Assembly: GCA_022843925.1 (NCBI GenBank)
Contig: JALHMS010000004.1
Span: 173,086 to 237,085, forward strand
Direction: 5' to 3'
DNA from: Burkholderiales bacterium
Lineage (GTDB): Bacteria; Pseudomonadota; Gammaproteobacteria; Burkholderiales; Ga0077523
Length of the DNA stretch: 64,000 nt
The notes under the pieces were generated by a model. It saw only the letters and a program-made list of their open reading frames with translations. It ran no database searches and had not been told where the DNA came from. The first letter of the stretch is position 1. Every line of letters starts with the position of its first letter. The position numbers were made by a program, and so were the translations under genes. This document shows, piece by piece, positions 1-45,206 of this stretch.

Positions 1-153
1 GAAGATCTCGCCCCCACTGCCGGGCAGTTGCACCATGCCCTCGGGGAACAGGAGTACGTGGCACTCCTGCGCCGGCTCCCACTGGAACCGGTAGTACTTC
101 GCAATCGCGATGGGGGTGTCGTGATCGAACGGAACGCGCTTCGGGGTTGCCAT
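1..153 (-). CDS. pqqD: PqqD, PQQ biosynthesis peptide chaperone (partial)
   Basis: The first 51 codons of a gene that runs off the left edge. PqqD is the small chaperone that binds the PqqA precursor peptide and presents it to the radical-SAM enzyme PqqE. The visible part contains the family-typical run YRFQWEPAQECHVLLFPEGM followed by VQLPGSGGEI, which matches the conserved PqqD core. The ATG at 153-151 lies 2 bases after the pqqC stop, so the two are translationally coupled in a pqqABCD operon. PqqE, the expected next gene, would lie outside the window. The identification is firm; the C-terminus cannot be judged. Confidence 0.9.
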   Translation of the reverse strand, partial: MATPKRVPFDHDTPIAIAKYYRFQWEPAQECHVLLFPEGMVQLPGSGGEIF

Positions 154-155
154 CG

Positions 156-875
156 TCAGCCGACCTTCGTTTCGCCGATGCCGTAGTTCACCATCATCGC
201 ATCGCACATGGTCCACAGGACGTCGAGCTTGAACTGCAGGATGTCCAGCGCGCGCTGCTGCTGCTCCGGCGTGCGGAAATGTTCGAGGGTCACGCGCAGG
301 CCGTGATCCACATCGCGGCGGGCCTCCGACAGGCGCTTGCGGAAGTAGGCGTAACCCGCCTGGTCGATCCACGGATAGTGCTGGGGCCAGTTCGCCAGGC
401 GTTCCTTGTGGATCTCCGGCGCGAAGAGCTCGGTGAGCGAAGAGCAGACCGCCTCCTGCCAGGGTCGAGTGCGCGCGAAGTTGATGTACGCGTCGACCGC
501 GAACCGCACGCCCGGCAGCACGTGCTTCAGCGACGTCACCTCGGCGCGATCCAGCCCGACGGCGTCGGCCAGCGTGAGCCACGCCTCGATGCCGCCTTCG
601 TCGCCCTGGGTTCCGTCGTGATCGATGATGCGCTGGATCCAGAGACGCCGATGATCCCGGTCGGGCATGTTCGACATCACTGCGGCGTCCTTCACGGGGA
701 TCGCCAACTGGTAGTAGAAGCGATTGCAGACCCAGCCGCGGATCTGCGCCTGCGTCAGCTTTCCGCTGTTCATCGCGACGTGGTACGGATGATAGATGTG
801 GTATCGGTCGCCCTTCGCACGAAGCTTTTGCTCGAACTCTTCGCGATTCCACGGCAGATTCTCGGCGATGCCCAT
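156..875 (-). CDS. pqqC: PqqC, pyrroloquinoline-quinone synthase
   Basis: Cofactor-less oxidase that performs the last step of PQQ formation, the ring closure and eight-electron oxidation of AHQQ by O2, in the cytoplasm. The 239-residue length is usual for the family. The start [18 protein letters not shown] is followed by the active-site stretch [16 protein letters not shown], then [20 protein letters not shown], and DHDG...GGIEAWL, all typical of PqqC. It is the third gene of a minus-strand pqqA-pqqB-pqqC-pqqD order, 17 bases after pqqB and 2 bases before pqqD. Nothing in it looks degenerate, so the operon is expected to be functional. Confidence 0.95.
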
Positions 876-892
876 GTGGTGTGCCTCCGTGC

Positions 893-1807
893 CTACAGTT
901 CGATGTCCATCCCGTCAAACGCGACCTCGATGCCGACGCGGGCCAGTTCGGCACGTTCCGGGGAGTCCTCGTTCAGGATCGGGTTGGTGTTGTTGATGTG
1001 GATGAGCACCTTGCGCGATGCGCGCAGCGGCTTCAGCACCTCGATCATTCCGCCGGGTCCCGACTGCGGCAGGTGGCCGATGTCCCGGGCGCGCTTGCTG
1101 GAGATGCCCAACGTCACCATCTCGTCGTTCGTCCAGAATGTGCCGTCCACCATCACGCAGTCGGCCTCCTCGAGGTACGCGACCACGTGCGGCTCGATCT
1201 CACCCAGACCCGGCGAATAGAACAGCACCTTGCCCGTCCGCGTGTCGCGGATCCGCATGCCGATGTTGTCGCCGATATGCGGATTCTCCCGGTGCGGGGA
1301 GTAGGGCGGCGCCTTGCTTTTCAGGGGGACGGACGTGAACTCCAGATGCTCACCACCGACCACCGAGAACCGGTTGTCGGGCTCGATGGGCAGCCTGTGC
1401 CAGTTCACGCCGCAGTAGTGGCCCAGGATGTTGAAGAGCGGGTTCCCGGTGGTCATGTCCTCCCGGACCATGTCCGTGCAGAACAACTCGAGCGGTTTGC
1501 CTTCGCGTAGCATCAGGAGGCCGGTCGTGTGGTCGATCTGGCCATCCATGAGGACCACCGACCGGATGCCCGTATCGCGGAGCGCCCGCGCCGGCTGAAG
1601 CGCCGGGAATCCGCGGATCTGCGCGAGGATGTCCGGCGATGCGTTGAAGAGCACCCAGTCGACGCCATTGCCGCTCACCGCAATCGAGGACTGGGTACGC
1701 GCCCGCGCATTCACCGTTCCCTTCCGCAACCCATCGCAGTTCGGGCAGTTGCAATTCCATTGCGGGAAACCTCCGCCGGCGGCGGCTCCGAGTACGCGAA
1801 TCTTCAT
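893..1807 (-). CDS. pqqB: PqqB, PQQ biosynthesis metallo-beta-lactamase-fold protein
   Basis: Member of the metallo-beta-lactamase fold, reported to act as an iron-dependent hydroxylase on a PQQ intermediate. At 304 residues it has the normal length. The N-terminus [19 protein letters not shown] followed by the CxxC of CPNCDGLR is diagnostic, as are [16 protein letters not shown] and [10 protein letters not shown] near the end. The predicted ATG is preceded by only a weak Shine-Dalgarno sequence. It is separated from pqqA by about 200 bases that contain a strong hairpin, so it is probably transcribed at a lower level than pqqA from a shared promoter. Confidence 0.95.
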
Positions 1808-1960
1808 CGTGATGGCTGGGTCCGTTGGATGCTGCAGGTCAGGACGAATGCGAGGGTGCGGCGGCTGTACCGATTGCCTGCGTGTACTTGGGACGTTGCG
1901 CCTTGGACCACTCCGTGAAGCCGCTCGGCGCGGGCGGCGTCATGGGCAGGTTCCCGATAC

Positions 1961-1989
1961 GCAAAGGCCCCGACACGCGGGGCCTTTGC
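1961..1989 (-). terminator. Hairpin between pqqA1 and pqqB (attenuator/terminator)
   Basis: A perfect inverted repeat with 12-bp arms (GCAAAGGCCCCG / CGGGGCCTTTGC) and a 5-base loop lies 18 bases beyond the pqqA1 stop on the minus strand. No long T-run follows, so partial termination or mRNA-end protection is more likely than full termination. Such a site would let pqqA transcripts exceed pqqBCD transcripts, as expected for a consumed precursor peptide. Confidence 0.7.
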
Positions 1990-2007
1990 GATCTCGTCAA
2001 TCCGCGT

Positions 2008-2079
2008 TCAGCGGCTGGCGATGTACATCGTCACTTCGAAACCGAAACGCATTTCCGTGTACGCGGGCTTGCTCCACAT
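2008..2079 (-). CDS. pqqA: PqqA precursor peptide, copy 1
   Basis: A 23-residue peptide that supplies the Glu and Tyr carbon skeletons of PQQ. It begins [12 protein letters not shown] and ends [10 protein letters not shown]. The cross-linked pair is E15 and Y19 in the E-x3-Y arrangement that PqqE recognises. A clear ribosome-binding site (TGGAGG) lies 7 bases upstream of the ATG. It heads the minus-strand pqqBCD operon. It differs from the second copy at 7807-7878 at only two residues, S3 versus T3 and S22 versus N22. The 218 bases upstream end at a 17-bp inverted repeat that is shared with the other copy. Confidence 0.95.
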
Positions 2080-2296
2080 GGCAACCTCCAGATGATAGAG
2101 TTCTTCGAATTCGCACAGGAGATTCCCCCGTGCGCTCAATCCGGATGCATCGCTTCCTGCTGTGCGCCACCGATCTCGGAGGGCGGGTCGTTGCCGGCCC
2201 TGCTTCCGAATCCCGACAGCGCATCATCGCTGCATCACTGGTCGTTAGTGTCTTGGATGCGCTCTCCCGTTCACACGAAAAAATCATCAAACTGCG

Positions 2297-2313
2297 CTCA
2301 TGATTTTCATGAG
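2297..2313. promoter_or_regulatory. 17-bp perfect inverted repeat, candidate operator (site 1)
   Basis: CTCATGATTTTCATGAG: 7-bp perfect arms (CTCATGA / TCATGAG) around TTT. It sits between divergent pqqA1 and tonB, 12 bases ahead of the tonB GTG. The same arms recur around AAA at 7682-7698, upstream of the second pqqA; the two 17-mers are reverse complements. The length and symmetry fit a dimeric NarL/FixJ-type regulator, and one is encoded at 7020-7670. Binding itself is inferred. Confidence 0.65.
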
Positions 2314-2324
2314 ATCGGAACGCC

Positions 2325-4280
2325 GTGAGTGATGTCACGCGTGGCGCCCCCACGGTGTCGTCGGCCCGGGTCGTCGCCGTGGAATCCCCTGGGGCCGCTG
2401 CGCGATGGTCGGATGATCATCCGTTCCTGCTTGCACTCGTCCTCTCCCTCGTGGCGCACGTGCTCTTCTTCGTTTTCGGACCTGCGGTGAAGGTGCCTGT
2501 ACCGGCGCCGCGATCCGTGCTCGAGGTGAAGCTGATCGAGCCGCCGCGCAAGCCCCCGCCCCCGCCGCCACCCGTCGTCGTCCCCGATCCGCCGAAGCCG
2601 GTGCCCGTGAAGAGCGCCCGTGCGACGGCGGCCGCGAAGCCTGCAGCCGCGAAGAGCCGCGTGGTCGTCGCACCGCGCCTCGCCGCACAGGTCGCGCCGC
2701 CATCCCAGCCGCTGCCGTCGGTGCAGCGGGATTCGCAAGAACAGCCCCGGACGAGGGTGCAGGCCGAGGTTCCGGCGGCGATACGGGCCGACGCGCCGAC
2801 GCTGCCGCGGCTCGAAGCCCGGGCCGACATCGCGCCGCGGCCGGTCGCGGATCTCGCCGTGCCGCGCACCGAGTCCAGACCTCGCGTCGACGCGGTACCG
2901 CGCCCCGAGCTTGCGCCCGTGGTCCGCGCAGACACCCGGGCGGAGGTGCCCAAGCTGGAGGCGAGGGCGCCCGGCGTCGTCGATGTGCAACCGATCACCC
3001 GTCGTGACGTGCCGGCGGAGCCGAGGCGCGACGTGGCGGTGCCGCGCCCCGACCTCGCGCCCGTGGTCCGTGCAGACACCCGGGCGGAGGTGCCGAGGCT
3101 GGAGGCGAGGGCGCCCGGTTCCGCCGATGTGCAACCGATCACCCGTCGTGACGTGCCGGCGGAGCCGAGGCGCGACGTCGCAGTGCCGCGCCCCGACCTG
3201 GCGCCGGTGGTCCGCGTAGACACCCGGGCGGAGGTGCCGAAGCTGGAGGCGAGGGCGCCCGGTTCCGCCGAGGTGCAGCCGGTCACGCGTCGTGACGTGC
3301 CGGCGGAGCCACGGCGTGAGGTGATCGCCGCCGCCCCGCGCCCCGACCTCGGCGTTCGTCCGCAGGTCGCTCCGCCTCCCGCAGCCACCGTCCGAGGCGA
3401 TGTTGCCGGTGACACGATGCCCCAGCCCGCGTCGGTCCGTCCGACAGCGCCGACCCCGCGTCCCGAACCGGCCACCGAACCCCGCCGGGATGTCGCCGCG
3501 CAGAGTCCGCCGCCTCCGATACAAGGCGGTCCGGTCGGTTCCGAGGTCAAGGTGGAGTCCGCTGCCCTGCCTTCCGCGGCCCCCGTTCGCGCCGCGACTG
3601 CGCGCGCGGAGCCGAGGCCGGACCCGCGACCGGATCCGGCGGCGGCATCGCGTCCGCGCCTGCCGGACGGGCCCGACGCGGCGAGTTCCCCGGTGATCCG
3701 CGACGATCCGGGTGCCCTGCGGCCTTCGCTCACCGCGGCACCCCCGGTGGCGGAAATCCGTCGGGAGCCGCCGCCCGCACCGAGGCCGCCTACGGATCGG
3801 CCGACGATCGCCCCGGTGCCGCTGTCGCCGTCTGCCCCGGTGGCGCGTGCAACGCCGGCGCCGACTGTCTCGGGGCCGGCCATCGACCCGAGACGGGATG
3901 CGGCGCCACGCATCGGCGGGCCGCAGGGTGCCGTTGTCGCCGGTGCACGGCCGACGCTGGGTGGCGTGCCCCGTGGCGATGGCTACGATCGCGCGGCGGC
4001 CGTGAAGTACGCCGAGAGCGTGGCCAGCGAGATCCAGAAGCGCATCCGCTATCCGCGCATGGCCGAGCGCGCCGGTCTGCAGGGGACGGTGGAACTCGTG
4101 CTCACGTACGATGCGCGCGGCAAGTTCGTCGAAGCCCGGGTGCGGAAGTCCAGCGGGCACAAGTCCCTTGACGATGCTGCGCTCGACGCCGCCGTCGCTG
4201 CCATGAGCCGGTTGGGGCGCGCCCCGGAGCGCACGCCCGAGCTGTCCATCCCCTACAACTTCAAGATCGAAGACCGCTGA
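2325..4280 (+). CDS. tonB: TonB-family energy transducer with long Pro/Arg-rich repeated linker
   Basis: Transmits the proton-motive force from the inner membrane to TonB-dependent receptors. The layout is a cytoplasmic N-tail, one membrane segment at about residues 36-55 (FLLALVLSLVAHVLFFVFG), a proline run (PPRKPPPPPP), a very long periplasmic linker, and a C-terminal TonB domain from about residue 560 with the characteristic RIRYPRMAERAGLQGTVEL. At 651 residues it is more than twice a normal TonB, because the linker holds three 48-50-residue repeats. The GTG start at 2325 is the only plausible one ahead of the membrane segment. It lies between pqqA1 and a peptidase, and pqqU is nearby, so PQQ import is the likely client. 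ExbB/ExbD are encoded at 44-45 kb. Confidence 0.85.
   Translation: MSDVTRGAPTVSSARVVAVESPGAAARWSDDHPFLLALVLSLVAHVLFFVFGPAVKVPVPAPRSVLEVKLIEPPRKPPPPPPPVVVPDPPKPVPVKSARATAAAKPAAAKSRVVVAPRLAAQVAPPSQPLPSVQRDSQEQPRTRVQAEVPAAIRADAPTLPRLEARADIAPRPVADLAVPRTESRPRVDAVPRPELAPVVRADTRAEVPKLEARAPGVVDVQPITRRDVPAEPRRDVAVPRPDLAPVVRADTRAEVPRLEARAPGSADVQPITRRDVPAEPRRDVAVPRPDLAPVVRVDTRAEVPKLEARAPGSAEVQPVTRRDVPAEPRREVIAAAPRPDLGVRPQVAPPPAATVRGDVAGDTMPQPASVRPTAPTPRPEPATEPRRDVAAQSPPPPIQGGPVGSEVKVESAALPSAAPVRAATARAEPRPDPRPDPAAASRPRLPDGPDAASSPVIRDDPGALRPSLTAAPPVAEIRREPPPAPRPPTDRPTIAPVPLSPSAPVARATPAPTVSGPAIDPRRDAAPRIGGPQGAVVAGARPTLGGVPRGDGYDRAAAVKYAESVASEIQKRIRYPRMAERAGLQGTVELVLTYDARGKFVEARVRKSSGHKSLDDAALDAAVAAMSRLGRAPERTPELSIPYNFKIEDR
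2913..3350 (+). repeat. Three tandem ~144-bp repeats in the TonB linker
   Basis: Units begin at 2913, 3057 and 3201. Each starts APVVRxDTRAEVP and ends near PRPDL. The first two are 48 residues and the third is about 50. They are nearly identical at DNA level, indicating recent in-frame duplication of the periplasmic spacer. Length variation between strains would change TonB reach without breaking the frame. Confidence 0.85.
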
Positions 4281-4282
4281 CC

Positions 4283-5242
4283 ATGCCCGACACGCAGGCC
4301 TCGCCGCTGTACCCGCCGCTCGCAGCGAACTTCGAAGGGCATCTCGATCGTCCGGGTGGTCATCGCGTGTACTTCGAGGAGAGCGGGCGGCGCGATGGCG
4401 TTCCGGTGCTCTTCCTGCACGGTGGCCCGGGCAGCAGCACGAAGCCGGACCATCGGCGCTATTTCGACCCTGCCCACTATCGCATCGTGCTTTTCGACCA
4501 GCGCGGTTGCGGACGCAGCCTGCCGCTCGGTGGCCTGGCCGAGAACTCGACTGCGCAACTGGTCGGTGACATCGAGGCGCTGCGAGAGCAGCTGGGCATC
4601 GAGCGCTGGATGCTCTTCGGCGGCTCCTGGGGCAGCACGCTCGCGCTCGCTTACGCCGAGACGCATCCCGAGCGGGTGTCGAGGTTCGTGCTGCGCGGCA
4701 TCTTCCTCGCCTCGCACAGCGAACTCGAGTGGTACTTCGTCGGCCTGCGCCAGTTCATCCCGGAAGCGTGGGAGCGTCTGTATGAGATCGCTCCGGGCGC
4801 TTCGTGGCCGGCGCTCGTCCGGACCTACGATTCGGCGTTAAATCATCCGGACGCCGCCGTGGCGGCAGCCGCTGCCGCCCGGTGGAATGCCTACGAGACC
4901 GCCATCATGTCGATCGGCGAGGCACAGCCGATGGCACCGGCGACCACCGATGCGCCCGGTGCCGTCGCCCGTGCCCGGGTCCAGGTGCACTATCTCGCGC
5001 ACGACTGTTTTCTGCGTGACCGTGAACTGCTCGACAACGTGCACCGCATCGCCCATCTGCCTGCGACGCTCCTGCACGGGCGCATGGATTTCGTGTGCCC
5101 GCCCATCACCGCCTGGGAGCTTGCCGGCCGATGGCCCGCCGCACGCCTCACGTACGTCGAGTCGGCGAAGCACGCGTCCTCGCATCCGGCACTCGAGCGG
5201 GCGCTGGTGGCCGCAGCCGATGCCGCGCGCGCGCCCGGCTGA
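4283..5242 (+). CDS. pip: Proline iminopeptidase-like alpha/beta hydrolase
   Basis: A 319-residue S33-family alpha/beta hydrolase that removes N-terminal proline from peptides. Family marks are the oxyanion-hole sequence HGGPGSS, DQRGCGRS, and the nucleophile elbow GGSWGS with Ser115. The likely acid is in HGRMDFVCP and the likely histidine in SAKHASSH near the C-terminus. It has no signal peptide and so is cytoplasmic. The start is 2 bases after the tonB stop, so it is probably co-transcribed with tonB, and the kinase gene follows 18 bases downstream. Sitting inside a PQQ cluster it could help degrade or process PqqA-derived peptides, but that is inference; a housekeeping role is equally possible. 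Confidence 0.88.
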   Translation: MPDTQASPLYPPLAANFEGHLDRPGGHRVYFEESGRRDGVPVLFLHGGPGSSTKPDHRRYFDPAHYRIVLFDQRGCGRSLPLGGLAENSTAQLVGDIEALREQLGIERWMLFGGSWGSTLALAYAETHPERVSRFVLRGIFLASHSELEWYFVGLRQFIPEAWERLYEIAPGASWPALVRTYDSALNHPDAAVAAAAAARWNAYETAIMSIGEAQPMAPATTDAPGAVARARVQVHYLAHDCFLRDRELLDNVHRIAHLPATLLHGRMDFVCPPITAWELAGRWPAARLTYVESAKHASSHPALERALVAAADAARAPG

Positions 5243-5260
5243 CCTTCCGGACGGTGCCCC

Positions 5261-7000
5261 GTGAGCCTGCGTTTCCGCATCAACCTGCTGCTCACCGTCT
5301 TCACGGTGCTGTTCACCGTGACCGTCGTGAAGATCGTCATCGACGACACGCGTCGCGCCATCCGCGAGGAGATGGAAGGCGCCAACCGCGTCACGATGCA
5401 GCTCCTCACCACGGTCGTGCGGGACTCCGGCACCATCGCCCGCGATGGGGATGCCGACGATCTGCTCCTCGAGTTCCTGCGCGAACTCGGTCGCGTGCGG
5501 GCGCACGATCTCCAGTTCTTCGACAGCGACGACAAGCTGCTCTACGTGTCGCCGCCGTCGGTCTACAAGGTGGGGCGCGAGGCGCCTGCGTGGTTCGTGG
5601 CGCTCGTGCGGCCGCAGCTCCCGGTCATCAATCTGCCGGTGCGCGGCGGGAATCTCACGGTCACCGTGGATCCCTCCCGGGCGGTCCTCGACGCCTGGGA
5701 CGACATCAAGAACCTCGTGGCTGCGGTGGCCACCTTTCTCGTCGCGACCAATGTCCTGGTGTTCGTCCTGATCGGACGGTCCCTACGACCGGTCGGCGCG
5801 GTGCTGGACGGTCTGCAGCGCATGGAGCGCGGTGAGCTGCACGTCCGCCTTCCGCGCTTTCCCGTGCCGGAGTTCCAGTCCATCAGCCACACCTTCAATG
5901 GCATGGCCGACGCGCTGGAGCAGAGTCAGGCCGAGAACCGTCGCCTCGCGCTCATCGCCCAGCAATCGAGCGACGCGATCATGATCCACGACGTCGACGG
6001 GCGGGTCTCGTACTGGAACCCGGCGGCCGAGCGACTCTTCGGCTTCCCCGCAGCCGACATCGTCGGTCAGTCCGTGCGGCTCATCACGCCGCCGGAGCGC
6101 GAGCCGGAACTGGCGGCGCAGTCCGAACGCCTGCAGGCAAGGGGCGTCATCGACCATCTCGAAACCCGCCGCCGCACGCGCGATGGTCGCGAGCTGGACA
6201 TCGCGCTCGCAGCGGCACCGCTCGTGGATCCCGTCTCGGGTGACGTCATCGGCGAAATCTCCACGATGCGCGACATCACCCAGCTGAAGCGCGCGCGCGA
6301 AGCCGAGGCCGAGCTTGCGCAGAACCGCCGCCTTACCCAGATCATCCAGGCCAGCCTGGAAGAGGAGCGCCGGGTCATCGCGCGGGAACTCCACGACGAA
6401 CTGGGCCAATGCGTCACGGCCGTGCGCACGATCGGCACGGTCATCGCCCAGCGGACCGAGGGTACCGACCCCGACATCCATCGCAGTGCGCGCACCATCG
6501 TCGAGGTGGCCGGGCACATCTACGACACCGTGCATGGCATCATCCGCCAGCTTCGTCCCAGTGCGCTCGACCATCTCGGCCTGAGCGATGCGCTGGAGGA
6601 GGCCGTGGGTCGATGGCGCGAACTGCACCCCGACATGATCTTCACGCTCGACGTCGAGGGCGACGTCTCGGCACTGGGCGAGACCGTCAACATCACCGTC
6701 TATCGCATCGTCCAGGAATGCCTCACCAACATCGTCAAGCATGCCCGCGCGCGTCGCGCCGAAGTCCAGGTCCGCCGCATCGATCGCCGGCTGCTGGTGG
6801 AGGTGCGGGACGATGGCCGCGGCCTCACCGAACCCGAGGCCCAGCGCGCGACGCGGTTCGGGCTCCTCGGCATGCGCGAGCGGGCAGAGGCACTGGGTGG
6901 CCAGTTCACGCTCGATGGTGCGCCGGGGCAAGGTCTGCGGGTCCGTGTCGAGCTACCCCTGAACCCAGCGGTCGTTCCACCGGGCGAGGCCACAGCGTGA
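5261..7000 (+). CDS. Membrane sensor histidine kinase (HAMP-PAS-HisKA_3-HATPase)
   Basis: A 579-residue sensor kinase of the NarX/UhpB/DegS class. It has a first membrane segment at about residues 8-26, a periplasmic sensor of about 120 residues, a second membrane segment at about 152-172, a HAMP linker to about 225, and a PAS domain at about 230-345 (SSDAIMIHDVDGRVSYWNPA). The phosphoacceptor region EEERRVIARELHDELGQ has His378, and the ATPase domain has N-box ECLTNIVKHA and DDGRGL. Start is GTG at 5261. The response regulator follows 19 bases later, making a clear pair. The ligand is unknown. Its position between tonB and the second pqqA suggests it senses PQQ, a PQQ-enzyme substrate or a related envelope signal. 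Confidence 0.9.
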   Translation: MSLRFRINLLLTVFTVLFTVTVVKIVIDDTRRAIREEMEGANRVTMQLLTTVVRDSGTIARDGDADDLLLEFLRELGRVRAHDLQFFDSDDKLLYVSPPSVYKVGREAPAWFVALVRPQLPVINLPVRGGNLTVTVDPSRAVLDAWDDIKNLVAAVATFLVATNVLVFVLIGRSLRPVGAVLDGLQRMERGELHVRLPRFPVPEFQSISHTFNGMADALEQSQAENRRLALIAQQSSDAIMIHDVDGRVSYWNPAAERLFGFPAADIVGQSVRLITPPEREPELAAQSERLQARGVIDHLETRRRTRDGRELDIALAAAPLVDPVSGDVIGEISTMRDITQLKRAREAEAELAQNRRLTQIIQASLEEERRVIARELHDELGQCVTAVRTIGTVIAQRTEGTDPDIHRSARTIVEVAGHIYDTVHGIIRQLRPSALDHLGLSDALEEAVGRWRELHPDMIFTLDVEGDVSALGETVNITVYRIVQECLTNIVKHARARRAEVQVRRIDRRLLVEVRDDGRGLTEPEAQRATRFGLLGMRERAEALGGQFTLDGAPGQGLRVRVELPLNPAVVPPGEATA

Positions 7001-7019
7001 ACGGGTACAGGGAGCATCC

Positions 7020-7670
7020 ATGAGCGAGCCGATTTCAGTGATGCTGGTCGACGACCACGCCGTCGTCCGCATGGGGTTCCGTCTCCTCCTGGAAGGCTCG
7101 CCGGACATCCGGGTCGTGGCCGAGGCCGAGAGCGGCGAAGATGCGGTACGTCGCGTTCAGGAAGTGAAGCCGCAGGTCGTGGTGATGGATCTCTCGATGC
7201 CGGGGATAGGCGGGTTGGAGGCGCTCTCCCGGATCCTCGCCCGCGATCCGGCCGCGAAGATCCTGGTGCTGACGGCCCACGAGGACGCCATGCACGCCAA
7301 GCGCGTGCTGAAGGCCGGGGCGCTCGGCTATCTGTCCAAGCGCAGCGCGCCCGAGGCGCTGATCCAGGCGATCCGCCAGGTCATGCAGGGGCGCACCTTC
7401 CTGGAGCCCGCGATCGCGCAGGAACTCGCCGTGCAGCAGGTGACGGGCGAGCGCACCCCGGTCGACATGCTGTCCGAGAAGGAATTCAAGGTGTTCCTGG
7501 CGCTCGCCAAGGGGCAGAGCGTCGCCGACATCGCGGAGGTGATGAGTCTCAGCCCGCGGACCATCGGCACGCACCTCTACAACATCAAGCAGAAGCTGGG
7601 TGCGTCCAACTCGGCGGAACTGGCGATCATCGCCATGCGGCACGGCCTCATGGACCCCCAGTGGCGGTGA
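7020..7670 (+). CDS. NarL/FixJ-family response regulator
   Basis: A 216-residue regulator with a receiver domain (residues 5-120) containing the acidic pair D11 D12, the phosphoacceptor D57 in VVMDLSMPG, and the conserved lysine in YLSKRS. A C-terminal LuxR-type helix-turn-helix follows (LSEKEFKVFLALAKGQSVAD then MSLSPRTIGTHLYNIKQKL). It is the partner of the kinase encoded just upstream. A 17-bp inverted repeat begins 12 bases after its stop and recurs upstream of the divergent pqqA1/tonB pair. I therefore infer that it controls both pqqA promoters, and perhaps tonB. Two-component control of PQQ and PQQ-dehydrogenase genes is known in other proteobacteria. Confidence 0.92.
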   Translation: MSEPISVMLVDDHAVVRMGFRLLLEGSPDIRVVAEAESGEDAVRRVQEVKPQVVVMDLSMPGIGGLEALSRILARDPAAKILVLTAHEDAMHAKRVLKAGALGYLSKRSAPEALIQAIRQVMQGRTFLEPAIAQELAVQQVTGERTPVDMLSEKEFKVFLALAKGQSVADIAEVMSLSPRTIGTHLYNIKQKLGASNSAELAIIAMRHGLMDPQWR

Positions 7671-7681
7671 CCGGGGCGAGT

Positions 7682-7698
7682 CTCATGAAAATCATGAG
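7682..7698. promoter_or_regulatory. 17-bp perfect inverted repeat, candidate operator (site 2)
   Basis: CTCATGAAAATCATGAG, the reverse complement of site 1 at 2297-2313. It lies 108 bases upstream of the second pqqA start and 12 bases past the response-regulator stop. Sharing of an otherwise unnoticed palindrome by both pqqA leaders is the main evidence for a common regulator. Confidence 0.65.
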
Positions 7699-7806
7699 GC
7701 GCCTTTCAGTGATTTGCGATGGTGCCGGGTGGCTGGATGCGGAGAATACGCATCTGACCGGACGCGGTCGTGCCTGAACTGAAACCCAACCCAAAAGGAA
7801 ACGATC

Positions 7807-7878
7807 ATGTGGACGAAGCCCGCTTACACCGAAATGCGTTTTGGTTTTGAAGTCACGATGTACATCGCCAACCGCTAA
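7807..7878 (+). CDS. pqqA: PqqA precursor peptide, copy 2 (orphan)
   Basis: A 23-residue PqqA beginning [12 protein letters not shown] and ending [10 protein letters not shown], with the Glu15-Val-Thr-Met-Tyr19 core intact. An AAGGAAA ribosome-binding site lies 7 bases upstream. It is not followed by pqqB; instead a leader with hairpins and then a PqqU-like receptor gene come next on the same strand. It is almost identical to the operon copy but with many synonymous differences, so this is not a very recent duplication. Both copies look translatable and substrate-competent. A second pqqA could raise precursor supply under the control of the neighbouring two-component system. Confidence 0.93.
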
Positions 7879-8001
7879 TCGCGGCTGGTGGTGGCGCGGC
7901 GCCGCGGAAGCGGCGTCGCGAGTCGGAGGCCGCTGAAGGCGGCCTTCGGCGTTTGTTGGCCCGCATGGATCCCGGCCGGAGTCGGGAGCCCCGCGGCGCG
8001 G

Positions 8002-8027
8002 AGGCCGGTACGCATGCGTACCGGCCT
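8002..8027 (+). terminator. 26-bp perfect palindrome after pqqA2
   Basis: AGGCCGGTACGCA followed directly by its reverse complement, then TTCCTTGTT. It lies between pqqA2 and pqqU and would act as a terminator or attenuator on pqqA2 transcripts. A second weaker stem (GGCCGCTGAAGGCGGCC) lies near 7929-7945. The arrangement mirrors the hairpin behind pqqA1. Confidence 0.65.
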
Positions 8028-8098
8028 TTCCTTGTTGATCCTTCACAACACCGCCCTGCGCTTTCCCCAGAGAAAGCCACCCACCGGAGATCAGGACC

Positions 8099-10213
8099 AT
8101 GCAGGCCCCCCGTACCCTCCCGCCCCTTGCCCGTTTCCCGCTGCACTGCGTAGCTGCTGCCGTCGCCTGTGTGTGCGGTGATCTTGCGGCCGCCGCCGAC
8201 ACGGTCCGTACTGCACCCGTCGTGATCACGGCCACGCGGGTCGAGCAATCCAGCCTCGATGTCCCCGCCGCCATCGATTCGATCGACAGCCGCGATCTCA
8301 CCGAGGCCCGCCTGCAGGCGAACATCTCCGAGACGATGCAGCGTGTTCCCGGGACGTACGTGCAAAGCCGCGAGACCTTCGCGCAAGAACAGCAGATCAC
8401 GGTGCGGGGTTTCGGGGCGCGCTCGCAGTTCGGCACGCGGGGCGTGCGGCTCTACGTGGACGGAATCCCGGCCAGCACGCCGGACGGGCAGGGCGGAAGC
8501 GGCCTTTTCGACTACAGCTCCGCGAAGAGCATCGAAGTGCTGCGCGGTCCCTTCTCCGCGCTCTACGGCAACCACTCCGGCGGTGTCGTCCAGATCCTCA
8601 CGGAAGATGGCCCGCAGACCCCGACCGCCAGCGGCAGCTTCTCCATCGGCAGCTACGGCACGCAGCGCTACGGCCTCAAGTTCGGTGGGCAGTACGGAGC
8701 GGTGAACGCCGTGGCCAGCGGCAGCTATCTCACCACCGACGGCTATCGGGATCGCAGCTCATCAGAGCGGTACCTGTTCAACTCGAAGTTCGGAATCAAG
8801 CTCGATGACCGGGCCACGCTGACGATCACGGCGAACTATCTCGACCAGCCACTCGATCAGGATCCGCTCACGCTGACGGCCGCGCAGGTGGCGCAGAACC
8901 GTCGGCAGGCGAATCCCAACGCCGCGACCTTCAACACCCGTCGTAGCCTCGACAACAAGCAGGTCGGTGTGGTCTACGAGCGGCAGCTCACGGGCGAGGA
9001 TTCGATCCGTGTTCTGGCCTACGGCGGGCAGCGGAACAACATCGGTTACTTGGCCGTTCGCGGTGGCGCCGCTGTGCCGTTCAGTTCGGGTGGCGTTTCC
9101 TCCATATCCCGCGACTATGCGGGTCTCGGCGGTCGCTGGACCCGCAACACGACGCTTTTCGGGAATCAACCGCTGACGGTGACCGCCGGCGCCGACTACG
9201 ACGTCGCGCTGGAGGATCGAAAGGGTTACGAGAACCTGAACGGCAACATCGGCATCCTGAAGCGCAACGAATTCAATCGCGTCAAGAGCTGGGGCAGCTA
9301 CGGCCAGGCCGAGTGGACTCCCATCCAGACCGTCACCGGTTTCGTGGGGCTCCGCTACACCCAGGTCAGCTTCCAGTCGTCCGACTTCTTCACGTCCCTG
9401 AACCCGGACGACAGCGGTGGCGCCCGCTTCTCCGCGTGGACGCCGGTGATCGGTGCACTGGTGCGCGTCACGCCGCTCACCAACATCTACATGAACGCGG
9501 GTCGCAGCTTCGAGACTCCGACGCTCATCGAGGTCGCGTATCAGAACGTGGGTAGCGGTCTCAACCTGGGCATCCGTCCGTCGACCAGCAATCACTACGA
9601 GATCGGCGTGAAGAGCCTGGTCGCCGACAACATCCGGGTGAACGCCGCGATCTTCCAGATCTATACGAAGGACGAGATCGTCGTCGATGGGACGCCGTTC
9701 GTGGGTCGGACGACTTTCAAGAACGCCGGCCGGACCGAACGCCAGGGTCTCGAACTGTCCGCGACCGGTGACCTCGGTCTCGGGTTCGGTCTGCATGGGG
9801 CCTACACCTATCTGAAGGCCACTTTCGCGGAGGCGTTCACCGGTGGTTCCGGCAATGTCGCTTCGGGCTCACAGATCCCCGGCATCCCGAGGAGCTTCGT
9901 CTACTTCGACTTCACATGGCGTGCGCAGAACGATTCGGGACTGTTTGCCGGCCTAGAGCATCGCCGTGCCACCAAGGTGTACGCGAACGACATCAATGCC
10001 GACTTCGCTGCCGGGTACAAGACGACCGATCTGCGCGTCGGCGTGAATCGCAATCTCGATCCGTTCGTGGTGCAGCTGTTCGCGCGCGTCAACAACATCT
10101 TCAGCGAGGAGTACATCGGCGCAGTCGCAGTCAACGGCGCCAATGGCCAGTTCTACGCCCCCGCCCCAGAGCGCAACTACCTCGCCGGCGTTTCCGCCTC
10201 GATGAAGTTCTGA
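8099..10213 (+). CDS. pqqU: PqqU/YncD-like TonB-dependent receptor (probable PQQ importer)
   Basis: Outer-membrane TonB-dependent transporter of 704 residues. It has a signal peptide (about 1-33), a TonB-box-like segment (PVVITATR), a plug domain with RGFGARSQFGTRGVRLYVDG and EVLRGPFSALYGNHSGGV, and a beta-barrel ending in an aromatic residue (SASMKF). From memory it tracks E. coli YncD, renamed PqqU for high-affinity PQQ uptake, through the plug and far into the barrel. Examples are GIPAxxPDGQG, GRxFETPT, KDEIVVD and the C-terminal PERNY-type end. E. coli PqqU is about 700 residues. An upstream GGAGATCAGGA supports the start. Placement beside pqqA, pqqBCD and tonB strengthens the PQQ assignment; no alignment was run. 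Confidence 0.85.
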   Translation: MQAPRTLPPLARFPLHCVAAAVACVCGDLAAAADTVRTAPVVITATRVEQSSLDVPAAIDSIDSRDLTEARLQANISETMQRVPGTYVQSRETFAQEQQITVRGFGARSQFGTRGVRLYVDGIPASTPDGQGGSGLFDYSSAKSIEVLRGPFSALYGNHSGGVVQILTEDGPQTPTASGSFSIGSYGTQRYGLKFGGQYGAVNAVASGSYLTTDGYRDRSSSERYLFNSKFGIKLDDRATLTITANYLDQPLDQDPLTLTAAQVAQNRRQANPNAATFNTRRSLDNKQVGVVYERQLTGEDSIRVLAYGGQRNNIGYLAVRGGAAVPFSSGGVSSISRDYAGLGGRWTRNTTLFGNQPLTVTAGADYDVALEDRKGYENLNGNIGILKRNEFNRVKSWGSYGQAEWTPIQTVTGFVGLRYTQVSFQSSDFFTSLNPDDSGGARFSAWTPVIGALVRVTPLTNIYMNAGRSFETPTLIEVAYQNVGSGLNLGIRPSTSNHYEIGVKSLVADNIRVNAAIFQIYTKDEIVVDGTPFVGRTTFKNAGRTERQGLELSATGDLGLGFGLHGAYTYLKATFAEAFTGGSGNVASGSQIPGIPRSFVYFDFTWRAQNDSGLFAGLEHRRATKVYANDINADFAAGYKTTDLRVGVNRNLDPFVVQLFARVNNIFSEEYIGAVAVNGANGQFYAPAPERNYLAGVSASMKF

Positions 10214-10230
10214 CCGCTCACGCGGTCGGC

Positions 10231-10268
10231 AACGAAAAACGGGAGCGCATGCGCTCCCGTTTTTCGTT
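10231..10268. terminator. Bidirectional terminator between convergent receptor genes
   Basis: A 38-bp perfect palindrome, arms AACGAAAAACGGGAGCGCA, with a run of five A on one side and five T on the other. It lies 18 bases after the pqqU stop and 16 bases from the stop of the opposite-strand receptor gene, so it can terminate both. Confidence 0.9.
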
Positions 10269-10283
10269 GGTGCGACCAGACGG

Positions 10284-12590
10284 TCAGCCCGGCGTGCGCT
10301 TCGGCGTGCGTCCGATCTCATAGCGCACGCCCACCCACAGACCGCGCGGTGCGCCGACGCCGTAGAAGGGCTCCGAGAACGCCGATCCCGGCGTGTAGAC
10401 GCCGCCCGGGAAGAAGTTCTCGCCCAGGATCCCGAAGTTCTCGAACTTGCGATCGAGCGCGTTGTTCACGCGCACGAACACCTGCCACTGGCTGTCGATC
10501 TGGTACCGCGCATCGAGGTTCACCAGCATGTAGCCCTTCAGCTTCCCGTTGACGTCCTGGTTGTTCTCGTCGCCGCGGGCATACACGCCCGAGTTCAGGA
10601 TGACGTTGCTGCCGACGGAGAAGGCATCGCTCACCGCGTAGTCGACGCGAAGCTTCACCGAATGCTCCGGGATGTTCGGGATGCGGTTGCCGCGGTTCAC
10701 CTGGATCTCACCCGCGACGGTGTCGCCGTTCAGGTCGGCTGCCGAAGAGTTGTTCGGGCTGTTGACCACGAAGGGTGTCTCGAACGTCGCTTTCAGGTAC
10801 GTGTAGAAGGCGCCCAGCTGGAGGTTGCCGAAGCGATACCGCCCGCCCATCTCCAGACCCTGGCGCCGCGTGTTGCCGACGTTGTCGAAATAGCCGCGCT
10901 GGATGTTCTGCGACGAGATGAACTGGATGTCGTCGCGCAGATCCGTGCGGAACAGTGCCGCGTTCCAAGAGAACGCCGCGTTGTCTCCACCGCGCGCGCC
11001 GATCTCGTACGTGCGGCTCACGACAGGCTTCAGCGGCGGATCCGCGAGGAACGCGTTGGGCAGCGGGCACGGGGCGTTCTCGTCCGCACACGTGAGTTCG
11101 ACCGGCGTGGGTGCGCGCATCCCTTCGCTGTAGTTCACGTAACTCGTGTAGCCCGCGTTCGGGCTGTACGTGGCACCGATGGCCGGGTTGAAGCGGATGA
11201 ACGTGTGGTCGCCGTTCACCGCGGGCTTGTTGCCGAGGCGGTCCTCCACCTTCACCGACGCGCGATTGAAGCGTCCCGACGCGGTGATCGCGATCTGGTC
11301 GGTCAACGAGAGGGTGTCTGTCGCGTAGAGACCCAGCGTGCGCGTGGAGCCCTTGATGGTCGTCTCGGCCTCGAACACGTCCAGCGGGATGTTCGTGCCG
11401 CGCGTGATGTCGAAGTCGGCTTCCTGCTCCTCCTGGCGGAAGGTGATGCCGGAGAGGTCGGCACTCGCGCCCACCGCAAGCTGGTTGCGCAGCCCGGCGA
11501 GATCGCCGAGGAAGGACATCTGTGCCGTCGTGCCGTAGGAGTTCTGCTTCAGATTGGACGTCTCGTTCGAACCCTGCGCCTCCTTGCCGCCCGTGCCGGG
11601 TGCCTGCAGGCAGGCAACATCGGTCGGGGAATCCGCGCACTCGTCGTTCACGTTGCTCGCGAAGGTGTCCTGCTTCCTCTGCCGGTAGTAGACGTTCCCC
11701 GAGAAGAGCATCGTGTCCGTGAGGAAGTGGCTGAGCCGCGCGTTGATCATCGCCAGCTCGTTCTTCGTGCGATCGGGCCAGCTGTACGGCTGCCGGCGGT
11801 TGCCGAGGAACGATCGCGGCAGCGCCTGGGTGCCTTCGAGACGGTTGTCGGCGAGCGAGAACGACAGATCGAAGTCGGTCGCACCGTCCTGGTAGCCGAC
11901 CTTCCCGAAGAGGTTCCGCAGCTTGCTCGGCGAGTAGTCGCGCCATCCGTCTTCCTGCAGCGCATTGCCCGTGAGGAACCAGTCCCATTTCTCGCCGTGG
12001 CCGCCCCACTCGAAAGAACCCGTGCGGCGTCCGAACGAGCCGCCAGTCACCGTCGCCGAGAAGCCGGGATGCTGGAAGCCGGACTTGGTCATCACGGCCA
12101 GCGACCCGCCCAGCGTGTTGAGACCGAACTGCGGGTTCGAGCCCGGCATCACGGTGATGCTCGAGATGGCCGACTGCGGGATGAGATCCCAGTTCACGGT
12201 GTCGCCGAACGATTCGTTCACGCGTACCCCGTCGACGAAGACGGAGAGTCCCTGGGGCAGCCCGAGCAGGTGCGAGGCCGTGAAGCCGCGGAAGCTCACG
12301 TCCGGCTGGAAGGTGTTGCCCTGTGCCGAGTTGAGCGTGACGCTGCCTGCGTTGTTGTCGAAGAACTCCGTGAGGTCCGCGGACCGCTGCGGATTCATCT
12401 CGGATCCGCGCAGGATCTGGATGTTGGCCGGCACCTTGGACTTCGGCAGCCCGAGGCTGGGCAGTGGCGTGGTGCCGACGACCTCGACCTTGGGGGCCTC
12501 GAGGGCGGTGGCGGCGTTGTCGGCGAGCACGCTGGCAGGCAGCAGTGCAGCGCTGATCGCCAGCAGGTGGCGTGGCGTTGGCAGTCGCAT
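10284..12590 (-). CDS. TonB-dependent outer-membrane receptor, substrate unknown
   Basis: A 768-residue receptor. I chose the ATG at 12590 because it opens a clean signal peptide (MRLPTPRHLLAISAALLPASVLA) behind GGGAGAG; an in-frame ATG 84 bases further upstream would add a Pro/Arg-rich tail. The plug carries VSFRGFTASHLLGLPQGLSV and GSNPQFGLNTLGGSLAVMTK. The barrel is full length, though it runs about eight residues past the usual terminal strand (RYEIGRTPKRTPG). I do not recognise the substrate. It lies downstream of fbpC on the same strand and converges with pqqU. Its promoter region has a 15-bp palindrome rather than a Fur box. A metal or metallophore needed by PQQ enzymes is possible but speculative. 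Confidence 0.85.
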   Translation of the reverse strand: MRLPTPRHLLAISAALLPASVLADNAATALEAPKVEVVGTTPLPSLGLPKSKVPANIQILRGSEMNPQRSADLTEFFDNNAGSVTLNSAQGNTFQPDVSFRGFTASHLLGLPQGLSVFVDGVRVNESFGDTVNWDLIPQSAISSITVMPGSNPQFGLNTLGGSLAVMTKSGFQHPGFSATVTGGSFGRRTGSFEWGGHGEKWDWFLTGNALQEDGWRDYSPSKLRNLFGKVGYQDGATDFDLSFSLADNRLEGTQALPRSFLGNRRQPYSWPDRTKNELAMINARLSHFLTDTMLFSGNVYYRQRKQDTFASNVNDECADSPTDVACLQAPGTGGKEAQGSNETSNLKQNSYGTTAQMSFLGDLAGLRNQLAVGASADLSGITFRQEEQEADFDITRGTNIPLDVFEAETTIKGSTRTLGLYATDTLSLTDQIAITASGRFNRASVKVEDRLGNKPAVNGDHTFIRFNPAIGATYSPNAGYTSYVNYSEGMRAPTPVELTCADENAPCPLPNAFLADPPLKPVVSRTYEIGARGGDNAAFSWNAALFRTDLRDDIQFISSQNIQRGYFDNVGNTRRQGLEMGGRYRFGNLQLGAFYTYLKATFETPFVVNSPNNSSAADLNGDTVAGEIQVNRGNRIPNIPEHSVKLRVDYAVSDAFSVGSNVILNSGVYARGDENNQDVNGKLKGYMLVNLDARYQIDSQWQVFVRVNNALDRKFENFGILGENFFPGGVYTPGSAFSEPFYGVGAPRGLWVGVRYEIGRTPKRTPG

Positions 12591-12700
12591 GGAACTCTCT
12601 CCCGGAATCCTGTTGACCATGGCCGGCCTCCGGCGTGGGGGCGCGGCGGGCGACGGAGTGTAGTCCGTGACCATGACGTGACGAGGGGTCCTGCGAAGAA

Positions 12701-12715
12701 TAGGAATTATTCCTA
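12701..12715. promoter_or_regulatory. 15-bp inverted repeat upstream of the TonB receptor
   Basis: TAGGAATTATTCCTA, a perfect palindrome around one central T, 111 bases upstream of the receptor ATG and just beyond the fbpC stop. It is AT-rich in a GC-rich region and could be an operator. It does not match a Fur box well, and no factor can be named. Confidence 0.4.
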
Positions 12716-12761
12716 GCGTGCCTGGGAGAGGCTGCTGTGCATCAAAAGCAGATAGCCGGAT

Positions 12762-13805
12762 TCAGACTGTGAACGTGCAAAGCCGCGTGGCCGCAAGATG
12801 CACGCCGAGTTCCTGGCCGATGGCGGTCGAGTGATCCGCGGGGACGTGGACGAGCACCTGTTCGCCACCCGGGATATCCACTGTGCAGAGCTGCATGGCA
12901 CCGCGGAAACGGCGGGCGGTCAGCCTGCCGCGGCACGGGGCCGAAGCATCGACGATCAGGTCTTCGGGACGCACGAGCACTTCGACTTCGCCATCCGGCG
13001 GTGCAGGATCGACGCGCGCGACGCCGAGGGCGGTGCGGACACCGTCCGGTCCTGCGATGCCGCGCAAGAACGTTCCTTCGCCCACGAAGCCGGCGACGAA
13101 CCGGGTCGCTGGATGGTGGAAGAGGGCGTAGGGCGTATCCCACTGCGCGAGGCGGCCGCCGTCCATGACGCCCACGCGATCGGCGAAGGCGAAGGCCTCG
13201 TGCTGGTCGTGGGTGACGAGTATGGCGCCCGCACCCTCGTGGCGGAGCACGTCGCGGACCTCCGCCGCCAGCTGTTCGCGAAGGCCCACGTCGAGACTCG
13301 AGAAAGGTTCGTCCAGCAGGACGAGCGGCGGTCGCGGCGCGAGCGCGCGCGCCAGGGCCACCCGCTGCTGCTGTCCGCCGGAGAGTTCGTGCGGATACCG
13401 CCTGCCCGCGCCAGGCAATCCGACGAGATCCAGGAGCGCATCGACGCGGCGGGCGCGATCGGATCGCGCCATGGCGCCGAGTCCGAAGGCGATGTTGCCG
13501 GCGACCGTGAGATGCGGAAAGAGCGCGAAGTCCTGGAACACCATCCCGAGCTGGCGGCGCTCGGGGGGCAGGTGGTGCGCGGCATCGGAGACCACGATGC
13601 CGTTCAGCCGGATCGTGCCCTGCTGCACGGATTCGAAGCCCGCGATCAGGCGCAGGAGCGTGGTCTTGCCACAACCGGAGGGGCCGAGCAGGGCGGCAGC
13701 CTCACCCGCGGCCAGGGTGAGATCCACGGCGTCGAGGACGCGTTGCGTGCCGAAGGCATGGGACACGCGCTCGACGCGCAGCAGGGGAGGAGAGAGGGTC
13801 GACAC
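12762..13805 (-). CDS. fbpC: Ferric iron ABC transporter ATP-binding protein (FbpC-like)
   Basis: A 347-residue ATPase that powers ferric import. Walker A GPSGCGKTT is at residues 41-49, followed by Q-loop VFQDFALFPHLTV, signature LSGGQQQR, Walker B VLLDEPFSSLD and the switch histidine in LVTHDQHEA. A C-terminal regulatory region follows. The start is a GTG at 13805. A TATAAT sequence on this strand ends only 8 bases before it, so the mRNA would be nearly leaderless. It is divergent from the permease gene instead of following it, and the binding protein is on a third transcript. Assignment to iron rather than another substrate rests on the FbpB/FbpA neighbours and nearby Fur-box-like sites. 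Confidence 0.88.
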   Translation of the reverse strand: MSTLSPPLLRVERVSHAFGTQRVLDAVDLTLAAGEAAALLGPSGCGKTTLLRLIAGFESVQQGTIRLNGIVVSDAAHHLPPERRQLGMVFQDFALFPHLTVAGNIAFGLGAMARSDRARRVDALLDLVGLPGAGRRYPHELSGGQQQRVALARALAPRPPLVLLDEPFSSLDVGLREQLAAEVRDVLRHEGAGAILVTHDQHEAFAFADRVGVMDGGRLAQWDTPYALFHHPATRFVAGFVGEGTFLRGIAGPDGVRTALGVARVDPAPPDGEVEVLVRPEDLIVDASAPCRGRLTARRFRGAMQLCTVDIPGGEQVLVHVPADHSTAIGQELGVHLAATRLCTFTV

Positions 13806-44181: not shown

Positions 44182-44601
44182 CTACTTCTTGGTCTGCTGG
44201 GTCGCGAAGGTCACGCGGCCGAACCCCGCGAAGCGCGCGGCCTCCAGAACGTGGATCACCGACTGGTGACTCGCGGTGGCATCGGCGTTGATCACGATCA
44301 TCGGATCGGGGTTGCTGCCGGCGGCGCGCTTCAGTTCGTTGGCGAAGGCCTCGGCGCTGGAGAAGACGACAGGGGACCGGTTGACCACGTAGCGCCCCGC
44401 AGGCGTCACGGCGACATCGATCTGCTGCGGGCGGTCGGCCGACGGTGGCGCGTCCGCGGTGGGGAGGTCGATCTGCAGTTCGGAGTAGCGCGAGTAGGTG
44501 GTGGTGACCATGAGAAAGATCAGGATCACCATCAGCACGTCGATGAGCGGGACCAGGTTCATCTCGGGTTCCTCGCGCACCGACCCGCGGCGGAAATTCA
44601 T
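44182..44601 (-). CDS. exbD: ExbD/TolR-family proton-channel protein
   Basis: A 139-residue protein with one membrane segment (MNLVPLIDVLMVILIFLMVTTT) holding the conserved proton-carrying Asp in the PLIDV context, then a periplasmic domain (DAPPSADRPQQIDVAVTPAG). It works with ExbB to energise TonB. Its ATG shares one base with the exbB stop (translational coupling). The TonB it serves is not adjacent here; the tonB at 2.3 kb is a candidate partner for it. Confidence 0.9.
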   Translation of the reverse strand: MNFRRGSVREEPEMNLVPLIDVLMVILIFLMVTTTYSRYSELQIDLPTADAPPSADRPQQIDVAVTPAGRYVVNRSPVVFSSAEAFANELKRAAGSNPDPMIVINADATASHQSVIHVLEAARFAGFGRVTFATQQTKK

Positions 44602-45206
44602 CAGCGGCGCTCTCCGTGGAGGATCTCCACGAGCTTCACGGCCTGCTGCTCCATCTCGACCACCAGCGAGTCCGCGCGGCTGCGGAAATGGCGGTAGAAG
44701 ATCATGCTCGGGATTGCCACGATCAGACCGAAGGCCGTGTTGTAGAGCGCCACGGAGATGCCGTGCGCCAGTTGCGCCGGACTGTTGCCGCCCGGCGCCT
44801 GCGATCCGAAGATCTCGATCATCCCGATGACTGTGCCGAGCAGGCCCATGATCGGCGAGATGGATGCGATGGTGCCGAGGGGAGGCAGAAACCGGCCGAG
44901 CTCGTGCGCTGCAGCGCGCCCGGCTTCCTCGATGGCTTCCTTGGTGACTTCGCGCGTGCTCTTCACGTTGGCGAGTCCGGCCGCGAAGACGCGCCCGAGC
45001 AGGGAGTCCTGGGCTAGACGATCGAGCATCGCCTGCGACACGCCCTGCGTGCGGAACTCCTCGGTGACCCGGGATAGGAGGTCTCGTGGTGCAACCAGGT
45101 TGCGGCGCAGTGACCAGCTCCGTTCACCGATGATGCCCAGGGCGATGATGGATGCTGCGATGATCGGCCAGATGGGCCAGCCTGCCGCTTCGATGATGGC
45201 CAGCAC
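44601..45206 (-). CDS. exbB: ExbB/TolQ/MotA-family proton-channel protein
   Basis: A 201-residue inner-membrane protein with three membrane segments: an N-terminal one (WPIWPIIAASIIALGIIGE) and a C-terminal pair (LGTIASISPIMGLLGTVIGMIEIF and ISVALYNTAFGLIVAIPSMIFY). The conserved GLLGTVxGM and TAxGLxxAIP motifs are those of ExbB. It forms the stator-like pentamer with ExbD. It is the first gene of a minus-strand run exbB-exbD-lpxK-trm112-kdsB and is divergent from xseA. Confidence 0.92.
   Translation of the reverse strand: MLAIIEAAGWPIWPIIAASIIALGIIGERSWSLRRNLVAPRDLLSRVTEEFRTQGVSQAMLDRLAQDSLLGRVFAAGLANVKSTREVTKEAIEEAGRAAAHELGRFLPPLGTIASISPIMGLLGTVIGMIEIFGSQAPGGNSPAQLAHGISVALYNTAFGLIVAIPSMIFYRHFRSRADSLVVEMEQQAVKLVEILHGERR

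Follow-up and report, generated by a model that had tools for sequence, protein, structure and literature searches.

A shared operator points to a putative two-component regulon for PQQ synthesis and uptake in a Burkholderiales bacterium

How do bacteria that produce pyrroloquinoline quinone (PQQ) balance the making of this shared community good against its recapture? The question is raised by a locus at the beginning of a 64,000-nucleotide stretch of Burkholderiales DNA (hereafter the window; G000:C4:173086-237085, where G000 is the source genome of 5.57 Mb), in which the gene of a predicted PQQ receptor, PqqU, lies beside the genes for PQQ synthesis. The pqq operon (pqqEDCB-pqqA1) occupies the minus strand, while tonB and the genes of a prolyl aminopeptidase (PIP), a histidine kinase and a response regulator (RR) run divergently on the plus strand, followed by a second precursor gene, pqqA2, and pqqU. 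On the strength of the sequence data, it is probable that the kinase and regulator command a two-component regulon which co-controls PQQ precursor supply, PQQ synthesis and outer-membrane uptake. This proposal draws on computed observations of the genes of the locus, the signature of its receptor, the copies of a shared operator and the co-distribution of that operator with the regulator.

In the proposed mechanism, a trigger at the LapD/MoxY-like periplasmic sensor of the kinase would lead to phosphorylation of the NarL-type regulator, which would then bind, and presumably activate from, the palindrome TCATGA-WWW-TCATGA (W being A or T). From its positions between pqqA1BCDE and the divergent tonB-PIP-kinase-regulator operon, ahead of pqqA2-pqqU and ahead of a DUF1800-DUF1501 gene pair, this operator would allow the PqqA precursor, the enzymes of PQQ synthesis and the high-affinity retrieval of the cofactor via PqqU and the local TonB to rise or fall jointly. 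Stem-loops following pqqA may keep the precursor in excess over the products of downstream genes, and PIP, to judge by its position only, may trim PqqA once the peptide is crosslinked, as PqqF/PqqG proteases are described to do in other systems in the available part of PMC12997753. PqqU would retake PQQ escaping from the periplasm or import the PQQ of neighbouring cells, two roles with which the sequence is equally compatible. The operator, the likely regulator and the short target list (every pqqA copy of the locus, pqqU, tonB and DUF1800-DUF1501) render the balance of making and recapturing testable, and the operator furthermore offers a route to regulated orphan pqqA genes and importers and to a candidate sensor of PQQ or quinoprotein status.

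Conservation of the locus and of a shared operator

The operator is a 15-bp palindrome, TCATGAAAATCATGA, with the general form TCATGAWWWTCATGA, in which the middle three bases are A or T. The exact 15-mer occurs three times in the source genome, i.e., in the gap between pqqA1 and the divergent tonB (2298..2312, TCATGATTTTCATGA, a place that is kept in relatives), before pqqA2-pqqU (7683..7697, TCATGAAAATCATGA) and before a gene pair that encodes a DUF1800 protein and then a DUF1501 protein (G000:C25:60869-62827; L013, L287). Searching the whole genome with the general form returned three perfect matches and 12 places with two mismatches, no place having a single mismatch, and a reversed-pattern control returned none. 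An operator copy also stands next to DUF1800 in families f18 and f23. The one-mismatch variant TCACGAAAATCATGA, present in several genomes of the genus, was rejected: it is found inside an open reading frame (ORF), PilC-like by eye, at every locus read.

The family sample consisted of 12 genomes, all of a single genus, 11 of them in addition to the source genome. The order pqqEDCB-pqqA1 plus PIP-kinase-RR-pqqA2-pqqU is kept on a single contig in seven of these 11 relatives (G001-G007), the whole arrangement except pqqU is present in G008, and the locus is divided among contigs in G009, G010 and G011. As the same order recurs in relatives of the genus, it is not due to chance, and the comparison across related genomes that had been proposed with the initial annotation thus reveals a conserved arrangement. 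Using a tblastn threshold of >60 bits, tonB was recognized in G001, G003, G004, G006, G007, G008 and G011, and was unrecognized in G002 and G005. The operator lies beside pqq genes at zero or one mismatch in all 12 genomes, the pqqA2 copy of G008 having decayed to two mismatches. In alignments of the genus both locus sites form islands of conservation, and a similar conserved block is located 44-45 nt downstream of each site in both promoters (distances read by eye). A third pqqA is found in G011 (L052, G011:C38), where the regulator gene is followed by two tandem copies, the site being exact for one of them and having one mismatch for the other.

Beyond the genus, PqqU loci of other bacteria (at least 80, with up to 10 kb on each side) were searched around the pqqU start, and among the 80 loci listed the site was present without mismatch in nine and with one mismatch in five, while shuffled sequence gave none at either level. 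The exact TCATGAWWWTCATGA is present in 76 of 399 genomes of the order. Forty sites outside the genus were examined, picked mostly for an AAA/TTT core among the matches listed; 26 of them adjoin pqqA/pqqB (23), a TonB-like ORF by a pqq operon (1) or DUF1800 (2). Several of the site-bearing pqqA genes are orphans, pqqBCDE being absent from the 7 kb read, for example in small f25 genomes.

Co-distribution of the operator and the regulator

The regulator encoded at 7020..7670 (plus strand) is of the NarL/LuxR type, with a receiver-GerE architecture and the recognition helix GTHLYNIKQKL. With a call at 246 bits or above, it is present in 59 of the 399 genomes of the order and pqqC in 73, both being found together in 56 (Fisher 4e-49, a value that ignores relatedness). 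In 46 genomes the two genes share a contig, on which they are at most 8 kb apart in 33 cases and at most 50 kb apart in 45. Five family-f20 genomes scoring 226-231 bits were also counted as regulator carriers because the three that were read have the same recognition helix. Among the pqqC genomes, the exact site occurs in 41 of the 61 that carry the regulator versus none of the 12 that lack it (Fisher 1.2e-5, relatedness uncorrected).

Thirteen loci were chosen for having the regulator and no exact site; no pqqA was found in three, and the other ten contain 14 pqqA copies preceded, at -110 to -203, by near-sites with one mismatch (seven copies), two (six) or three (one). Among seven regulator-less loci, five pqqA copies were found, whose best matches have four to five mismatches. 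The helix, in the form GTHLY(N/H)(I/V)KQKL, is carried by 53 of 66 RR-like ORFs (50 distinct aligned sequences) and by every ORF at or above 249 bits, those without it being mostly other paralogues. Outside the order, 10 genomes besides the source genome match the regulator at 1e-60 or better among 321 genomes of the class, and the best of these, G662, has the arrangement pqqEDCBA-site-kinase-regulator. A regulator with the same recognition helix is encoded three genes after a PQQ-dependent dehydrogenase on a plasmid of Azoarcus sp. KH32C (L252), and a more distant RR paralogue (45%) with a different helix follows pqqBCDE on a plasmid of Paraburkholderia largidicola, with a TonB-dependent receptor near (L253).

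A number of observations weigh against the proposed regulon. Fourteen of the 40 sites examined outside the genus adjoin no recognized PQQ gene, and these sites (L205, L206, L209, L212, L215, L216, L219, L223 and L226-L231) were rejected as PQQ-linked; a wider stretch read around two of them (L270, L286), and around an additional site (L285), revealed no PQQ gene. The exact TCATGAWWWTCATGA is also present in 35 of 326 genomes that lack pqqC, the inspected copies being mostly at unrelated places. Conversely, an exact site is missing from 20 of the 61 regulator-bearing pqqC genomes, the regulator is present without pqqC in three genomes, and in G553, the second-best match outside the order, the RR relative adjoins pqqA but its helix is changed and a site is lacking. 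Neither Fisher value takes account of shared ancestry. Within the genus, the DUF1800 site is retained at zero or one mismatch in only five of the ten genomes having the gene (four at zero, one at one). Neither locus site revealed a sigma-70-like promoter, and promoter anatomy lends activation no support beyond the conserved downstream block. Finally, no quinoprotein gene found in the source genome was shown to have an operator site.

The receptor is a predicted PqqU

The product of 8099..10213 (plus strand), which comprises plug and barrel domains, scores 578 bits against the NCBIfam model for PqqU (NF041535), the next-best model reaching 179 bits and E. coli PqqU itself 1312. The score is below the model cut-off of 1200 bits, which is a naming threshold for close kin and no functional criterion. 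The closest solved structures are those of E. coli YncD and PqqU (PDB 6v81 and 9c4o), and the alignment with E. coli PqqU has 40% identity across 682 columns. Eleven PQQ-contact residues are named in the portion of PMC12124388 available to us, the paper's own count being 12. Five of these are identical in the window receptor (Q84, R304, R365, Y481 and R536), two are replaced (Y99 by F and K274 by R), and four differ (Q121 to G, Q308 to G, Q310 to L and N477 to I).

The same portion of that paper defines a signature, i.e., an aromatic residue (Y, F or W) at position 99 together with R304 and R365, and the window receptor has F111, R312 and R374 at these positions. The signature is present in every one of the 80 PqqU loci listed from other bacteria and in all seven genus relatives tested, and is found in none of five other receptors tested, namely FhuA, FepA, CirA, FhuE and a further TonB-dependent receptor of the window (TBDR2). 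Furthermore, a tree placed the window receptor and E. coli PqqU in one 26-row clade with support of 97/99, in a topology where the outgroup branches are long. Neither low similarity at the PQQ contacts nor a placement away from PqqU was thus encountered in alignment and tree, and the PqqU-like identity given to this product in the initial annotation is upheld: by published signature and tree, it is a predicted PqqU.

The pqqU slot of the genus is occupied by two PqqU lineages, G000, G003 and G004 being set apart from G001, G002, G005, G006 and G007 even though the genes on either side are orthologous; the pattern resembles an in-place replacement. TBDR2 (10284-12674), a TonB-dependent receptor convergent to pqqU, was rejected as a second PQQ receptor, two of the three signature residues being absent. 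Its relatives elsewhere lie near pqqU or regulator orthologues, one of them (L100) near an exact site.

The kinase sensor and alternative explanations

The histidine kinase (5261..7000, plus strand) combines a LapD/MoxY-like periplasmic sensor with HAMP, PAS, HisKA_3 and HATPase domains. Its first 180 residues gave a good predicted model, with a local confidence (pLDDT) of 86 and a template modelling score (pTM) of 0.72. The best fold match is the periplasmic domain of the LapD orthologue CdgS9 (4u64; E 0.016, prob 0.97); further sensor domains score only slightly lower, none reaches E <=0.001, and the agreement in fold is weak to moderate. LapD_MoxY_N (PF16448) gives a weak full-length match (17.8 bits versus a cut-off of 25) and is matched by 11 of 18 kinases at E <=1. 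We take the kinase to be MoxY/MxaY-like.

This bears on what the pair may sense. It may answer a quinoprotein substrate (alcohol) or a metal (lanthanide/calcium), with the PQQ genes raised alongside and PQQ itself not sensed, a tenable explanation to which we give somewhat less than even weight. Because the lanthanide switch of M. buryatense is governed by MxaY, which carries such a LapD/MoxY domain (PMC6115532, in the part accessible), a metal or the state of the quinoproteins has to be taken seriously as the signal in place of PQQ. The source genome contains nine quinoprotein matches at 424 bits or more, six of them above their family cut-off, which makes a demand for PQQ plausible and also suits a quinoprotein-related signal; relatives of the regulator, moreover, adjoin quinoproteins in G119, G332, G381 and on the Azoarcus KH32C plasmid. 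Against this, no site with zero or one mismatch exists in the source genome beyond the three named places, and therefore quinoprotein genes are seemingly not direct targets; they were rejected as such on these genome-wide matches, with no one-by-one scan upstream of the quinoproteins.

That the periplasmic domain is instead a receptor for PQQ, making the pair a dedicated system that balances PQQ synthesis against its retaking, is an unlikely variant. It is suggested by the sensor residues R78, R80, Y102, K103, R140 and W146, invariant in 18 kinases, and R106 and W111, nearly so, since basic and aromatic residues are of the kind that PqqU uses for the three carboxylates and the rings of PQQ. 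If true, a PQQ-sensing pair would be conserved in 16 or more of the 21 families of the order that were sampled and bear pqqC.

It is improbable that the palindrome belongs to another, unrelated regulator, the two-component pair being merely its genomic neighbour. Exact sites among pqqC genomes occur exclusively where the regulator is present, the recognition helix is near-invariant, and in family f25 the regulator gene is mostly ~30-40 kb from pqqC (167 kb in G309), with the sites still kept.

The initial annotation had envisaged a loop of receptor, transducer and regulator that matches synthesis to PQQ. What stands of it is the apparent co-control of synthesis and uptake, by way of a shared operator that tracks the regulator; what does not is the relay, in which PqqU would sense external PQQ and signal via TonB to the kinase/regulator pair, thereby setting synthesis to availability. 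The adjoining of receptor, tonB, kinase and regulator in conserved order would suit such a relay, as would an operator common to synthesis and uptake genes. Nevertheless, it is unsupported because the kinase has its own conserved LapD/MoxY-like periplasmic sensor. In addition, the plug match of PqqU starts at about residue 53, leaving no N-terminal signalling extension, positions 1-10213 showed no gene for a FecR-like transducer or extracytoplasmic function sigma factor (as in a FecR-type relay), and G008, G026 and G662 keep the kinase/regulator and pqq genes with no pqqU in the stretch read; a relay is accordingly very improbable. Least probable of all is plain co-location, in which the genes share no control and lie together as suits horizontal transfer, since for all that pqqU and the pqq operon are generally not syntenic (PMC12124388, as partly available) and pqqB, pqqC or pqqE occurs in only five of the 80 PqqU loci listed, the operator precedes pqqU even where no pqq synthesis genes are present in the stretch read (L079, L100, L101, L103 and L104).

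Gene content of the locus

A regulon that joins precursor supply, synthesis and uptake presupposes the corresponding genes. The initial annotation had reported pqqABCD, tonB, a hydrolase, a kinase/regulator pair, a second pqqA and a receptor within about 10 kb; all of these were recovered with hidden Markov models, with the amendment that pqqD is only partly in the window and pqqE lies outside it. The complete set pqqA, B, C, D and E exceeds every model cut-off, D and E being read from the flanking DNA (L001). On the minus strand, pqqD (1..153; NF002535, 111.9 bits, cut-off 101) is truncated at the beginning of the window, with a start codon that ends at ~153 and the remainder coming from L001, and pqqE is wholly outside (L001:16811-17974, minus strand; TIGR02109, 516 bits, cut-off 381). 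These are accompanied on the same strand by pqqC, encoding PQQ synthase (156..875; TIGR02111, 370.3 bits, cut-off 240), pqqB (893..1807; TIGR02108, 426.4 bits, cut-off 245) and pqqA1, encoding a 23-residue precursor peptide (2008..2079; TIGR02107, 48.4 bits, cut-off 20). The second 23-residue precursor is encoded on the plus strand by pqqA2 (7807..7878; TIGR02107, 50.1 bits, cut-off 20).

Strong stem-loops are found 3' of many pqqA copies across the genus. The one between pqqA1 and pqqB (1961..1990, minus strand; RNAfold -30.1 kcal/mol in a 46-nt stretch) is a possible attenuator or terminator that would lift pqqA above the remaining genes of the operon, and two terminator-like stem-loops, putative in function, separate pqqA2 from pqqU (7922-7950 and 8000-8029, plus strand). 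No known structured RNA was detected at gathering scores within positions 1-13000.

The tonB homologue (2325..4280, plus strand; TonB_C PF03544, 45.4 bits; TIGR01352, 50.9 bits) has a long repetitive linker, in which a 144-base repeat is apparent (2931-3240), one 20-mer recurring at 2931, 3075 and 3219. It is followed on the same strand by the PIP gene (4283..5242; TIGR01249, 310 bits, cut-off 259.75). Between G003 and the source genome, TonB is 79% identical and the regulator 100%. Far from tonB, an ORF pair on the minus strand (44182-45206) resembles ExbD and ExbB by eye.

Comparison with known systems

The co-location of pqqU and pqq genes is not new. Synteny of pqqU with the pqq operon has been reported in four Burkholderiales genomes, where the importer adjoins the synthesis operon and co-regulation was suggested (PMC12124388, fig. 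S11), as proposed here. The synteny account in the available portion of that paper mentions neither a kinase/regulator pair nor an operator, a tonB or a second pqqA, all of which are present in this locus. Searches of the open-licence PubMed Central literature, with subscription papers and preprints outside their scope, did not find the 15-mer operator as text; nor was this kinase/regulator pair, or a link of DUF1800 with PQQ, found in that literature. According to the same portion of PMC12124388, E. coli makes no PQQ, whereas the PqqU of the window belongs to a genome that encodes PQQ production.

Pseudomonas is known to have response regulators of pqq genes. The available part of PMC12997753 describes AgmR/ErbR (PedR1) of Pseudomonas as a LuxR-type protein that activates the ped cluster and, probably, pqq genes, and it resembles the regulator of the window, when compared by description only, as a LuxR/NarL-type regulator tied to PQQ synthesis. 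AgmR is there tied to hybrid kinases, whereas the models nearest to the window regulator are those of UvrY/GacA and MctR, none above its cut-off, and the ErdR model (NF041830) yields 63.7 bits versus a cut-off of 390. PqqG of Pseudomonas, a prolyl oligopeptidase encoded near the pqq operon, is paralleled by the PIP of this locus (PMC12997753, same part). The sensor domain of the kinase is similar, if weakly, to those of MoxY/MxaY and LapD, and the genes that it would serve here are those of PQQ synthesis and uptake, not those of methanol dehydrogenase.

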